From contig NZ_AP021884.1 of assembly GCF_009938015.1 (NCBI RefSeq), positions 372,001-436,000 on the forward strand: a stretch of DNA of 64,000 bases, in the 5' to 3' direction. The translations under genes and the position numbers were made by a program. This document shows positions 46,432-51,001 of this stretch, one piece after another. The DNA is from Sulfuriferula plumbiphila. Its GTDB lineage: Bacteria > Pseudomonadota > Gammaproteobacteria > Burkholderiales > Sulfuriferulaceae. Under the pieces are notes generated by a model. It had not been told where the DNA came from, did no database searches, and saw only the letters and a list, made by a program, of their open reading frames with translations. Each line of letters starts with the position of its first letter. The first letter of the stretch is position 1.

Positions 46432-46577
46432 TAACGACCACCACTCGCCAGCTTGATGCGATTCGCATTCGTCGACACACGTAACCAGCCGCATTTGCCC
46501 CAGACCTCAGTCGTCTCGTTTCAGTGTGGAGGTTAGATGTTCCATCGAGTTGCATGAGCAGGAAGGGGGATTCCATC

Positions 46578-46590
46578 CCCTATAATAGGG
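46578..46590 (+). promoter_or_regulatory. Palindromic -10 before the RpoN-box/GIY-YIG gene
   Basis: The palindrome CCCTAT-A-ATAGGG contains a consensus TATAAT (46581-46586). No convincing -35 was found at the usual distance. It could be a promoter under control of a dimeric regulator, perhaps the encoded protein itself. Confidence 0.45.
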
Positions 46591-46630: not shown

Positions 46631-47866
46631 TTGCAACACCATAACAATAAGATTGACGCCGCACTGCTCGGTAAAATCGTGCTCGCCCGCTTTCTGGAGT
46701 TGCCGCTGCGGGCGGTAGACCGTCTCGCGGCCCAGATGGAGTCCTCCGCCGGCTTTACCGCCCTGCGTCCCTGGGTGAGCGTGGGTCGGTTGGAAGGCGC
46801 GCGGGTGGCGCATGATGCGGCCGACATCCCCCAAACCCGGGCACCCCCGATTCTGGGGGAGGTTCACGAGGCGGGCCGGGGCCTGATGTTCCTCTACCAC
46901 CGCGACAGCTACGTGCGGGAATACCGGTTCGATGAGGAGGGGGTGAACCGCCTGATGGCGCGCCCGGACCTCCCGGCGGAACTGGCAGGCGTAGTGAGCC
47001 GGTTGCGCCTCATCAATACCCGGAACCGTCTCACCCATGCCCTGATGCAGGCGGTACTGGCATCGCAGGCGGCATATCTGCGTTCCGGGCAGGTCTTGAC
47101 GCTCCTGCCTTTGACCCAGGCGGCAATTTCCGCCCGGCTGCGGTCGGAGTCGAATCTTGCCGTGGTGGCGGATGCGGGCCGCATCTCCCGGCTGGTGCGT
47201 GGGCTGTCGATCATGCTGCCAAACGGGAAAGCGGTGCCGTTAAACACCCTGTTCCCGAAGCCGCGGCAGGTGCATTGCCATTTCGTGGATTATATGATAA
47301 AAGAAGAAAAAACATGGATGGCAGAAGGGCTATTGCGGGGACCGCTGACGGACGAGGCTGTCGCCGCCATCCTTAAGCGGGAACATGGCATCCGCTTGTC
47401 GCGGCGCACAGTGGCCAATATCCGCCATGGTCTGGCGATTCCCGATTACAAGAGCCGCAGCCAGCGCACGGATTACCTGGCCGCTACCGAGGGATTTTCC
47501 GCCTTGGTGCCGCTGACCGCTCAAGCACTGCGCACTGCGGTTCCGGCCCATTCCGGTGTGTACGAGATCCGGACGGCTTTCACTTTCCGCCTCGGTGAAG
47601 AAAAGGCCTGGCCCGGGAAAAGTGTGCCGCCAGTGCCGCACGGCGTGGTCTACATCGGCTCGGCCGGTGATTTGCGCAAGCGCTTGGGCGATCACCTGCG
47701 CGGCAGCAGCGCTAATGCGCTGCTGTATCGCCACGTGGCCGATGGCGCCGCGCGGGTGCGGTTTCGCCTGATCAGTACAGACTGGCGCGTGGTGGAGCGG
47801 GAGTTGTACCAGGTATTTTGCGAGACCTTCGGCGTGTCCCCGCCGTGTAACCGCATGAGCCCTTAA
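46631..47866 (+). CDS. Sigma-54-like DNA-binding protein fused to a GIY-YIG nuclease
   Basis: An open frame of 411 residues. Residues 120-210 resemble the RpoN core-binding part (LRLINTRNRLTHALMQAVLASQAAYLRSG...GRISRLVRGLSIMLPNGKAVPLNTLFP). Residues 215-275 resemble the RpoN DNA-binding domain with an RpoN box SRRTVANIRH (257-266; usual ARRTVAKYRE). The Gln-rich activator region I of sigma-54 is absent. Residues 309-409 are a GIY-YIG domain: GVYEI, VVYIGSAGDLRKRLGDHL, ERELYQVF and CNR, keeping the Tyr, Arg, Glu and Asn of the active site. I know of no studied protein with this pairing. The start is uncertain (TTG at 46631 or GTG at 46678). Confidence 0.8.
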   Translation: MQHHNNKIDAALLGKIVLARFLELPLRAVDRLAAQMESSAGFTALRPWVSVGRLEGARVAHDAADIPQTRAPPILGEVHEAGRGLMFLYHRDSYVREYRFDEEGVNRLMARPDLPAELAGVVSRLRLINTRNRLTHALMQAVLASQAAYLRSGQVLTLLPLTQAAISARLRSESNLAVVADAGRISRLVRGLSIMLPNGKAVPLNTLFPKPRQVHCHFVDYMIKEEKTWMAEGLLRGPLTDEAVAAILKREHGIRLSRRTVANIRHGLAIPDYKSRSQRTDYLAATEGFSALVPLTAQALRTAVPAHSGVYEIRTAFTFRLGEEKAWPGKSVPPVPHGVVYIGSAGDLRKRLGDHLRGSSANALLYRHVADGAARVRFRLISTDWRVVERELYQVFCETFGVSPPCNRMSP

Positions 47867-47952: not shown

Positions 47953-48084
47953 ATGAACAAGAACAACTATAAGGTTCGGCGGCGTGACATGGAAGAAATC
48001 TTGCGCAAGCAAGCAAGCAAGCAAGCTAGCTTGACGGCAGCTTCATCTCCCTTTCTTGGCTTACGGCGAGGTCCGGCAATATGA
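47953..48084 (+). CDS. Small upstream ORF coupled to the globin-GGDEF-EAL gene
   Basis: A 43-codon frame, MNKNNYKVRRRDMEEILRKQ..., ends in ATATGA, so its stop overlaps the ATG of the next gene. It contains the CAAG repeat at 48006. Loss or gain of one repeat unit would shift the frame and end it early or elsewhere, which could change translation of the downstream gene. The protein itself is too short to classify. Confidence 0.45.
   Translation: MNKNNYKVRRRDMEEILRKQASKQASLTAASSPFLGLRRGPAI
48006..48033 (+). repeat. Tetranucleotide repeat (CAAG)5 with adjoining palindrome
   Basis: Five CAAG units (48006-48025) are followed by C and flow into the 12-bp palindrome CAAGCTAGCTTG (48022-48033). Tetranucleotide tracts of this kind can change length by slippage. 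It lies 48 nt before the start of the globin-coupled GGDEF-EAL gene. Confidence 0.85.
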
Positions 48085-50717
48085 AGTCTCTGGATGAGAC
48101 CGTCGAGGCCGTGATGCGGACGCTGGGACTGGACGATGCCGCGGTCGTCCGGCGCAAGGCCTTTCTGGAATTCACCGATGACGACGTCGCGCGGTTGCGG
48201 ACCCTGCACGCAGCCCTGCAAGATCTGGCGCCGGATTTCGTCGACGCCTTTTACACCCATCTCCTGGCCTTCGAGGAAACACGGGCGCTGCTGCCCCACG
48301 CGCAAACGCTGGAACGTTTGAAGCGTACCCAGGCGGCGTATTTCGACAACCTCACCGCGGGCGACTACGGGCCGGATTACATCCTCCACCGCCTGCGCGT
48401 GGGAGCGGCCCACCAGCGCGCCGGTCTTGCGCCGGCATGGTATCTGGGGGGCTACAGTAAATATCTGGCGGGGTTGTTCCCCGAACTCTGGCAGCGGCTC
48501 GGGAAAGACCCCGAGGCCTTTGTCGCCACCTGCCAGGCGCTGATCAAGATCGTCCTGCTGGACATGGGGCTGGCCATCGACACCTATATCCAGGCTGACC
48601 GGCAAACCATCCTGACGCTGAAAGAGTATGCCGACATCGTGTTCGCCAGCATCCCCGACGGACTGCTGGTGCTCTCGCCCGACCTCACCGTTTTGTCCGC
48701 CAACCGGGCCTTCCTGGAGCGGTTGGGGCTCACTGAGGAGGCCGTGCGCGGCCGCTATCTGATGGAAGTGCTCGCGGCCGACGGATTGCGCGGACGGGCC
48801 CTGGAAGTTCTGGCCACCGGCGTCGCCCAGCATGACGTGCTTTTCAGCATGGGGCCGGCGGGCAGCGATGAGCGCAAACCGGTGCGCGTGACGCTGACTG
48901 GAATCCGGCTTGCGGAAGAAGAAGAAGAAGAAGAAGCCCGGCTCCTTTTGATCGTGGAGGACCTGACCGAAGAGCAGGCATTGCGTGCCGCCGCGCTGGA
49001 ATCCGAACGCCGTTTCCGGGATTTGGCGGAAACCGCACACGACGGAATCATCATGACCGATCCCCAGGGGAAAATCGCCTATTTCAACCGGGCGGCAGAA
49101 CGCATGTTCGGCTATCGCCGCAACCAGGCGCTGCAGCGGTCGATCGGAACGGTGCTGCCGGAACCGCTGTCCTGCCAACTGGATGAAGGATTGCAGCATA
49201 CCCCGGTGTGGGAAACCCAGGGGCGCCGTCAGGATGGCACGTTTTTCATGGTAGAGGGTTCCAGCAGCGTGTTCGAAGGTTCCGCGGGGCGTTTCATCAC
49301 CTACGTGCTGCGCGACCTGACCGAGCGCAAGCAGTTCGAGCGCCAGTTGATACACTTGGCCAATCACGATCCGCTGACCCATCTTCCCAACCGCAAGTTC
49401 TTCCAGGATCGCCTCGGCATCAGCCTGGACGAGGCGGCGTTGAACGAGGAGCAGCTGGCGGTGTTGTTTCTCGACCTGGACCGCTTCAAGCTGATCAACG
49501 ACACCTTTGGCCATGCGCTGGGCGACAAGCTGCTGCTGATGGTGGCCGAGCGGCTCGCCGGCTGCTTTCGCAAGGGCGACATGCTGGCCCGCCTGGGGGG
49601 CGATGAATTCGTAGTGCTGCTGCGAGGGCTTTCCGGGAAGCAGGATGCCACCCTCGTCGCCCAGAAAATCATGGATGGCTTCGCTCACGCCTTCCAACTG
49701 GAAGCGCATGAAGCCTTCGTCTCCGCCAGCATCGGCATCGCTTTCTATCCCTCGGACGCCATCGATGCGGACAACCTCATCCGGTGCGCCGATAGCGCCA
49801 TGTACCAGGCCAAGGAACAAGGCCTGGGGTATCAGTTCTACCGGCTCGATCTGGAAAATCTGTCGTCAGAGCGGCTCACCCTGGAGAACAGTTTGCGCAG
49901 GGCCTTGGAACGTGACGAGTTGCGGCTTTACTACCAGCCCAAGGTGGATCTCGCGAGCGGGGCCGTGATCGGGCTGGAGGCGCTGCTGCGCTGGGCACAT
50001 CCGGTCAGAGGCATGATCCCGCCCGACCAGTTTGTTCCCCTGGCGGAGGAAACCGGCCTGATCGTCCCGATCGGCGAATGGGTCTTGCGCACGGCGTGTT
50101 TGCAGATCAAGGCCTGGCAAGGGGAAGGGATGCCCCTTCTCCCGGTGGCGGTGAACCTGTCGGCGCGTCAGTTCAGGCAACCCTCGGCCAGCGGTGAAAC
50201 CGAGGGGAGACCGCTCTCGGATGAAGCGGCCGGAGTGCACGACTTGGTTGAAACCATCGAGCGCGTGCTGGGGGAAACGGGGGTGGATCCATCCTGCCTG
50301 GAATTGGAGATTACCGAAAGCATTCTGATGCAAAACCTGTCGACGGCAGCCAATATCCTGCAGGCGCTGAGTGCCAAGGGAATGCGCATCTTCATCGACG
50401 ATTTCGGCACCGGTTATTCGAGCTTAAGCTATCTCAAGCGCCTGCCCATCGACACCATCAAGATCGACAAATCCTTCGTGGGGGATATTACGACCGATCA
50501 GGATGACGCAGCGATCGTGGCCGCCATCATCGCCATGGCCCACAGCCTGCGCCTCAAGGTAGTGGCCGAAGGGGTGGAAACGCAGGAGCAGTTCGACTTC
50601 CTGCTCGAACGCGGCTGCGACGCCATGCAAGGTTATTTTTACAGCAAACCGCTGCCGGCGGAGGAAATTCTCCCGCTACTGCGAAGTACACGGAATTCCA
50701 GTTCCGGTCGCGACTGA
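48081..50717 (+). CDS. Globin-coupled sensor with PAS, GGDEF and EAL domains
   Basis: An 878-residue protein. A protoglobin sensor (residues 1-180) has a proximal His in RVGAAHQRAGL (H111). Two PAS-like parts follow (about 190-300 and 310-420), then GGDEF with intact GGDEF near residue 506 and an RxxD inhibition site just before it (RKGDMLARLGGDEF). EAL comes last, with EALLRW near residue 632, NLSARQF, ELEITES and DDFGTGYSS, so both activities could work. Oxygen or NO binding at the haem would set c-di-GMP turnover. A (GAA)7 tract at 48915-48935 codes for a Glu run between sensor parts. Confidence 0.93.
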   Translation: MKSLDETVEAVMRTLGLDDAAVVRRKAFLEFTDDDVARLRTLHAALQDLAPDFVDAFYTHLLAFEETRALLPHAQTLERLKRTQAAYFDNLTAGDYGPDYILHRLRVGAAHQRAGLAPAWYLGGYSKYLAGLFPELWQRLGKDPEAFVATCQALIKIVLLDMGLAIDTYIQADRQTILTLKEYADIVFASIPDGLLVLSPDLTVLSANRAFLERLGLTEEAVRGRYLMEVLAADGLRGRALEVLATGVAQHDVLFSMGPAGSDERKPVRVTLTGIRLAEEEEEEEARLLLIVEDLTEEQALRAAALESERRFRDLAETAHDGIIMTDPQGKIAYFNRAAERMFGYRRNQALQRSIGTVLPEPLSCQLDEGLQHTPVWETQGRRQDGTFFMVEGSSSVFEGSAGRFITYVLRDLTERKQFERQLIHLANHDPLTHLPNRKFFQDRLGISLDEAALNEEQLAVLFLDLDRFKLINDTFGHALGDKLLLMVAERLAGCFRKGDMLARLGGDEFVVLLRGLSGKQDATLVAQKIMDGFAHAFQLEAHEAFVSASIGIAFYPSDAIDADNLIRCADSAMYQAKEQGLGYQFYRLDLENLSSERLTLENSLRRALERDELRLYYQPKVDLASGAVIGLEALLRWAHPVRGMIPPDQFVPLAEETGLIVPIGEWVLRTACLQIKAWQGEGMPLLPVAVNLSARQFRQPSASGETEGRPLSDEAAGVHDLVETIERVLGETGVDPSCLELEITESILMQNLSTAANILQALSAKGMRIFIDDFGTGYSSLSYLKRLPIDTIKIDKSFVGDITTDQDDAAIVAAIIAMAHSLRLKVVAEGVETQEQFDFLLERGCDAMQGYFYSKPLPAEEILPLLRSTRNSSSGRD

Positions 50718-51001
50718 CCTAAAGGCCATCCTCGATGGGATCCTGCCGCCTGACTTGACGCTGTTCGATCTTGCAGTCGATCCGCCAGTGCTGGAGGAGT
50801 AATCCTAAAAACGGCTATCGGACGCAGATGATTCAACTCGTTGATGCGCGTAACGCCGTGTTGATTTACGTGCAGGTTTGGGCCATGAATTTGCATGTTC
50901 ATCTGACCCGGACTTGGGCTTGGAAACCAACGGGATGCCCCGACTTTGCGAATGACAGCATGAGTCAGGGCTCCAGGCAAATGGCGGGTTAGCATGGCGC
51001 G
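50718..51001. other. Intergenic stretch with an unassigned C-terminal piece
   Basis: Right after the GGDEF-EAL stop, a short frame reads DLKAILDGILPPDLTLFDLAVDPPVLEE and stops at about 50803. It looks like the end of a lost gene, but I cannot name it. The rest has no recognised feature. Confidence 0.35.

Follow-up and report, generated by a model that had tools for sequence, protein, structure and literature searches.

A single reading frame in the window, by which we mean the whole stretch of 64,000 nucleotides from Sulfuriferula plumbiphila analysed here, joins a DNA-binding region of the sigma-54 type to a GIY-YIG nuclease domain. The question that this locus raises is which DNA such a protein would be aimed at and what it would do there. 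The results given below point to two short sites in the region of the adjacent gene, both of them next to a microsatellite (Table 1), and raise the possibility that the protein changes these repeats and, through them, cyclic-di-GMP signalling.

Table 1. Features of the cassette, with positions counted from the first nucleotide of the window
Feature	Position	Strand	Description
Nuclease gene	46631..47866	+	411 aa, TTG start
Nuclease, N-terminal region	residues 1-125		without assignment
Nuclease, DNA-binding region	residues 126-276		sigma-54-type HTH and RpoN box
Nuclease, C-terminal region	residues 309-411		GIY-YIG domain, preceded by linker
Leader reading frame	47989..48084	+	31 aa; ATG overlaps TGG of site A
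Site A, TGG-N8-TTGC	47990..48004	+	sigma-54 -24/-12 core spacing
(CAAG)5 microsatellite	48006..48025	+	n = 3 to 31 in relatives
Protoglobin-PAS-PAS-GGDEF-EAL gene	48081..50717	+	878 aa; constant partner
Site B, TGG-N8-TTGC	48899..48913	+	within partner coding sequence, PAS-domain loop
(GAA)7 microsatellite	48915..48935	+	Glu run; n = 6 to 12 in full-length-nuclease relatives

The fusion is real. A sequence-only reading had described one frame that joins the two regions, and both the frame and the RpoN box (SRRTVANIRH, residues 257-266) are as it claimed. The likeness to sigma-54 on which it relied held up in profile searches: Sigma54_DBD of Pfam matches residues 126-276 with an E-value of 4.9e-8 and 33.3 bits, above the cut-off of 22.8, and in a profile-profile comparison residues 127-277 align to 20 RpoN proteins with 94.8% probability. 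Moreover, the profile of the nuclease family matches a solved RpoN at 4.1e-10, and all 21 aligned family members match Sigma54_DBD at E ≤ 0.01. In sigma-54, the part composed of the HTH and the RpoN box reads the -24 and -12 elements. Invariant in the aligned family are the two RpoN-box arginines and the one aligned with the RpoN HTH, and we take the equivalent arginines of RpoN to be those that contact the -24 and -12 elements. Taken alone, the window protein scores 17.7 bits for GIY-YIG, under the Pfam cut-off of 22.6, and PF01541 (GIY-YIG) is matched at E ≤ 0.01 by 20 of the 21 family members, the best at 9.9e-6. The active-site residues had been said to be kept, and GVY, YIG and the candidate catalytic Arg, Glu and Asn, whose catalytic role in this family we assume, are invariant in all 21 aligned homologues, which suggests selection for nuclease activity.

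Region I of sigma-54 had been called missing, and this also proved correct. PF00309 has no match in the window protein at E ≤ 1 in Pfam, and the profile comparison gave no meaningful alignment of the nuclease family to region I, so a region I hidden in the N-terminus was not borne out. Neither Pfam nor the profile comparison found a core-binding-domain match in residues 1-130; the profile alignment of the family to 5ui5 starts at residue 77. Support for the TTG start comes from the homologues, most of which start at the same place with TTG, the one in L019 with GTG. Structure prediction gave a weak model (mean pLDDT 63, pTM 0.45), and when it was submitted to Foldseek the best match was the sigma-54 structure 5nsr at E 0.05, with T4 EndoII at E 1.9 and a probability of 0.20; the model carries no weight in what follows. 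Synonymous conservation at the start of the gene is within the range of the remaining gene, and an over-conserved cis-acting end at this position was rejected.

The nuclease gene comes after transfer genes of the TraI_2, TraG/TrwB and DUF4400 types. The sequence-only reading had it lie where the ICE transfer genes break off and saw in this a fit to a selfish or defence element. The position is right, but its relevance looks incidental because the plasmid copies described below have other upstream neighbours. A defence element is not supported: PADLOC gave no match at E ≤ 0.01 for the nuclease or the partner protein, and the gene that constantly accompanies the nuclease codes for an enzyme of cyclic-di-GMP signalling. 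A defence or phage origin was discarded on the lack of PADLOC and PHROG matches; in addition, phage records gave no match at E ≤ 0.01, and viral contigs yielded nothing by the site B pattern, the site A repeat pattern or the family profile. Upstream of the nuclease gene, a GGGG..CCCC palindrome at 46561-46590 runs into TATAATAGGG; among the upstream regions viewed, only that of L030, a paralogue, clearly shares it, L020 showing a fainter resemblance, and palindrome and TATAATAGGG may together form a promoter and its operator.

Related loci number 22 in genome contigs, and 18 of them span residues 1 or 2 to 411. The window's genome carries a second full copy of the nuclease and two fragments, besides a normal rpoN gene, and further copies lie on the plasmids pDCB1 (Diaphorobacter) and pSTJ2 (Sulfuricystis). 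The nuclease family is rare and the cassette patchy in distribution. Scores above 350 bits were obtained in 6 of 300 genomes of the order, one of these being a fragment, and the class survey found the family in 3 of 369 genomes at E ≤ 1e-10, where one of the three matches spans only residues 129-285 and its frame reads as an RpoN protein; 18 further weak matches in the 300 genomes look by their position like ordinary RpoN. The cassette looks mobile, since it is present on two plasmids and since one genome has it twice in full and twice as a fragment. No pair of inverted repeats of at least 14 bases was found at the cassette ends, and a transposon with such termini was set aside. The two full copies in the window's genome are alike for about 115 bp beyond the GGDEF-EAL stop (window 50718-50831), and the end of this likeness, near CGGCTATCGGACGCAGATG, is possibly the right border of the cassette.

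The partner gene is constant. In 26 of the 27 loci with a full-length nuclease, a gene related to the GGDEF-EAL gene of the window lies downstream on the same strand. This set is without L016, L020, L021 and L022, which end inside the nuclease; in the 27th locus, L010, the contig stops too early to show the partner. The GGDEF part is visible in 24 loci, the contigs of L007 and L008 stopping before it. The plasmid copies resemble the window in that an EAL-domain gene directly follows the nuclease, and in some loci small unassigned frames stand between nuclease and partner (118 aa in L006 and L007). The first of two downstream genes in L015 and L017 is a GGDEF gene without the matching EAL part, and the partner of L112 reads in two frames. 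The sensor ahead of GGDEF differs by locus and includes protoglobin, PilJ-HAMP and others.

The spacing of TGG-N8-TTGC equals GG-N10-GC, the spacing of the sigma-54 -24/-12 promoter consensus, and is an exact match to its core. Site A is present in the spacer ahead of the partner gene, as GG-N8-TTGC-G-(CAAG)n, in 26 of the 27 full-length-nuclease loci and in the TGG form in 24, the base before GG being G in L011 and A in L018; the deepest relative, L036, is without it. Site B, as TGG-N8-TTGC-R-(GAA)n, occurs in all 25 readable loci (all except L008 and L010). At two separate sites, two different repeat units begin 0-1 base after TTGC. When arrays were picked out of 35 records by repeat alone, all 29 GAA arrays of at least 4 copies, and 33 CAAG arrays, adjoined TGG-N8-TTGC; of the coding-strand CAAG arrays only those of L011 and L018 and the L192 repeats past the gap in their array did not, and no such site stands beside 11 other arrays, each of a trinucleotide in 4-5 copies. 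The earlier idea of a nuclease steered to -24/-12 sequences gains from these two conserved GG-N10-GC sites as far as targeting is concerned, which is well supported, and the protein very probably reads TGG-N8-TTGC beside both repeats, whereas its cleavage of the DNA and the change of the repeats are steps that we infer.

The TTGC of site A runs into its own inverse, CTTGCGCAAG (window 48000-48009), and each CAAG unit restores TTGC on the opposite strand; with this inverse and the CAAG units, the protein could perhaps bind either way round. Each of the tandem GGDEF genes of L015 and L017 has its own site A and CAAG repeat, and the first is without site B.

Site B is conserved at the DNA level. 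The codons were counted in 25 loci for which the Glu run was the sole selection criterion; these loci are related and fall by eye into about seven lineages, so that the counts are not independent. The T of TGG is the third base of a codon that reads ACT in 22 loci and GCT in 3, as against 8.7% of Thr and 8.8% of Ala codons in the partner genes as background; the Leu codon behind TTGC reads CTT in all 25 (background 11.8% of Leu codons), and the Glu run uses GAA in 200 of 200 codons (background 51% of Glu codons). The Gly and Arg codons between TGG and TTGC vary in their third bases (GGA, GGC, GGT; CGG, CGT, CGC). In L036 the residues are changed (TGMYLA vs TGIRLA) and the TGG-N8-TTGC pattern of the DNA is retained.

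We also compared the distribution of the nuclease with that of the sites. The site B pattern was found in 21 of 24 genomes or records with nuclease loci, the nuclease contig stopping within or shortly after the nuclease in the three misses, and the site A pattern in 25 of 27 nuclease-bearing records, the misses being G185 (L036) and G447 (L022, cut). Among the 300 genomes of the order, the 6 that carry the nuclease are also those with site A, and the 5 whose nuclease is full-length are those with site B, a co-occurrence that is partly plain linkage because nuclease and sites sit in one cassette; read backwards, the site patterns gave 0 matches in these genomes. As a control, a sequence related to residues 1-300 of the partner occurs in 30 of the 300 genomes, and neither site pattern is present in any of the 24 without the nuclease. 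The control is weaker than it appears, since the match crosses the position of site B (past residue 290) in only 4 of the 24 and one of these four, L107, keeps TGG-N8-TTGC. In L107 this site is followed by 3 GAA, below the pattern minimum of 4; the locus has no site A, and no nuclease was found in its genome.

The repeats differ in length among close relatives. The window has 7 GAA and L030 has 8, L013 and L017 have 9 and 7, and L006 and L007 have 8 vs 9 GAA and 6 vs 5 CAAG. L007 and L122 come from one assembly as overlapping contigs with the same flanks and have 9 vs 7 GAA, a difference that may be population variety or an assembly effect. An assembly gap inside the CAAG array of L108 makes its n a lower bound. 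In G451, CAAG arrays of 31 and 28 copies stand at two cassettes (L112/L191 and L188), far longer than at other cassettes. The leader starts at an NTG that overlaps TGG, except in L011 and L018. Among 26 loci, it ends directly 3' of the repeats in 13 and later in 6; in 4 (window, L005, L018, L029) it ends at an ATGA over the enzyme start, the TGA stop overlapping the ATG of the next gene in the window at n = 5; it is fused to the enzyme in 2 (L003, L121) and unreadable in 1 (L108). Early, later, coupled and fused phases of the leader all occur among the loci, and leader and (CAAG)n together have, judged by their sequences, the anatomy of a phase switch.

Cassettes without an adjoining intact nuclease, L107 with its 3 GAA among them, give a pattern that is suggestive but mixed. 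L031 and L032, in the window's genome, are decayed cassettes in which the nuclease genes are broken and the GGDEF-EAL genes are open; the GAA run is lost in L031, site B was not found in L032, and both keep (CAAG)5. In L110, where the match to the partner breaks off at residue 191, short of site B, site A is retained with 6 CAAG, and in L189 a nuclease remnant is accompanied by 5 CAAG. L188 has 28 CAAG and 9 GAA with an adjoining nuclease remnant, and a full nuclease elsewhere in the genome, and L190 is present in two copies, with 8 and 7, in a genome whose nuclease is cut by a contig end (L020).

We propose that the cassette may be a built-in mutation switch for cyclic-di-GMP signalling that works via nuclease breaks at two repeats, and we regard the case for it as evenly balanced. 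The nuclease would bind the two GG-N10-GC sites in the neighbouring gene region through its sigma-54-type HTH and RpoN box, its GIY-YIG domain would cut or nick near the site, and repair of the break in the adjoining microsatellite would gain or lose units. At site A, four-base units would shift the leader frame among three phases, with an early stop, a later stop, or a stop that overlaps the enzyme start or an in-frame fusion; at site B, three-base units would alter the length of the Glu run in the PAS loop and leave the frame intact. The presumed outcome is changed cyclic-di-GMP signalling. That the protein acts at both repeats as a repeat-changing nuclease likewise has, in our view, an even chance. 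One point against the switch is geometric: the C-terminus is found on the -24 side in sigma-54 complexes, which would require the nuclease domain to extend backwards over its linker of about 30 residues. Several observations also speak against it: the deepest relative, L036, has no site A; L107 keeps the core of the site although no nuclease was found in its genome; the decayed copies L031, L032 and L188 are mixed; L011 and L018 have site A without the usual start codon; and microsatellites vary without any dedicated enzyme.

Other explanations have to be weighed against the switch. The protein could be a DNA-binding regulator or roadblock on GGDEF-EAL transcription, its GIY-YIG domain acting rarely or elsewhere and the repeats changing by ordinary slippage in replication. 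The sites are suitably placed for this, one before the GGDEF-EAL gene and one within it, and slippage, which passages of the 2025 review PMC11868660 name among the mechanisms, can by itself account for variable microsatellites. We consider the roadblock unlikely, however, given that the GIY-YIG motif residues do not vary in any of the 21 aligned homologues and that regulation alone leaves unexplained why both sites abut microsatellites, with different units. Sites A and B could also be ordinary sigma-54 promoters of the host RpoN, at which the fusion protein competes or cuts. The exact GG-N10-GC spacing and the normal rpoN gene of the window's genome would fit such promoters; the CAC(G) part of the sigma-54 consensus is absent, and we consider this reading very improbable. 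The leader start overlaps the -24 element in most loci, so under this reading the leader would depend on a transcript with a start farther upstream.

Breaks near A and B could instead serve module exchange or spread, in that a second copy supplies replacements for cassette parts (sensor, output half or nuclease gene), the repeats being scars left by repair. Segment comparisons of 24 loci show that the cassettes are mosaic. L002 and L004 agree at.90 in the nuclease,.89 up to site B and.60 after it, with the change point 99 bp past the GAA run; the output half after site B is exchanged in L002 and L012 relative to L004, L014 has a different sensor between A and B, and the window is closer to L002 in its nuclease and to L019 in its enzyme, the change falling at the nuclease stop. 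The copies on two plasmids and the two intact ones in one genome agree with exchange as well. Yet the change points, taken from chosen discordant pairs only, lie 84 to 293 bp off the sites and not within them, and they may reflect selection for domain boundaries. Moreover, a homing target is normally destroyed by its element, whereas the sites here are intact within the cassette. Exchange or spread as the explanation is unlikely in our estimate, but mosaics with change points near the sites mean that breaks there may drive module exchange in addition to a switch.

Returning to the switch, the cassette would then encode a dedicated site-specific mutator, in which the promoter reader of a sigma factor aims a nuclease at two microsatellites; this remains tentative, its chance a little short of even. 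If it is true, the cell could raise mutation only at two repeats, flip a translational phase switch and tune a sensor protein of cyclic-di-GMP signalling in the same cassette. To our knowledge, phase variation by simple repeats is held to depend on passive slippage; it would then be enzyme-driven, as is already the case for invertible DNA. Repeat mutation rates would be genetically encoded, regulated and transferable between species, and the promoter reader of a sigma factor would have been redeployed as an aiming device. The cassette would further offer a simple bacterial model of nuclease-driven repeat change, GAA repeats included, and a natural tool for local hypermutation.

Among known systems, contingency loci share with the cassette a tetranucleotide repeat in a leader frame, an in-frame triplet repeat and copy numbers that vary in relatives, and a further feature of theirs is present here, namely a reading frame with a repeat unit that is not a multiple of three and with phases that differ among natural loci. 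The cases known to us are attributed to general slippage. In the cassette, unlike in contingency loci, each repeat adjoins a conserved binding-type site and a DNA-binding nuclease is carried along. A search of the open-licence literature by title found no GIY-YIG/sigma-54 fusion and no phase-variation system with nuclease-driven repeats. PMC11868660 names slippage, recombination and methylation as mechanisms of phase variation, and its main text has no word starting with 'nuclease' ('endonuclease' falls outside that check). The genes pdcB and pdcC of Clostridioides difficile, as covered in passages of the same article, likewise place phase variation on cyclic-di-GMP enzymes, but by promoter inversion, with no repeats or GIY-YIG nuclease in those passages (PMC11868660). 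With sigma-54 (RpoN), the fusion protein shares the HTH and RpoN box region and the apparent GG-N10-GC targets; it differs in having a nuclease domain and in being without region I or a recognised core-binding domain. GIY-YIG endonucleases include homing enzymes such as I-TevI, restriction enzymes and T4 EndoII. The cassette protein resembles them in its motif residues and in the joining of a nuclease to a separate DNA-binding domain, but it owes this DNA-binding domain to a sigma factor, and its apparent targets lie beside repeats in the protein's own cassette, where, unlike the target of a homing endonuclease, they stay intact within the element.
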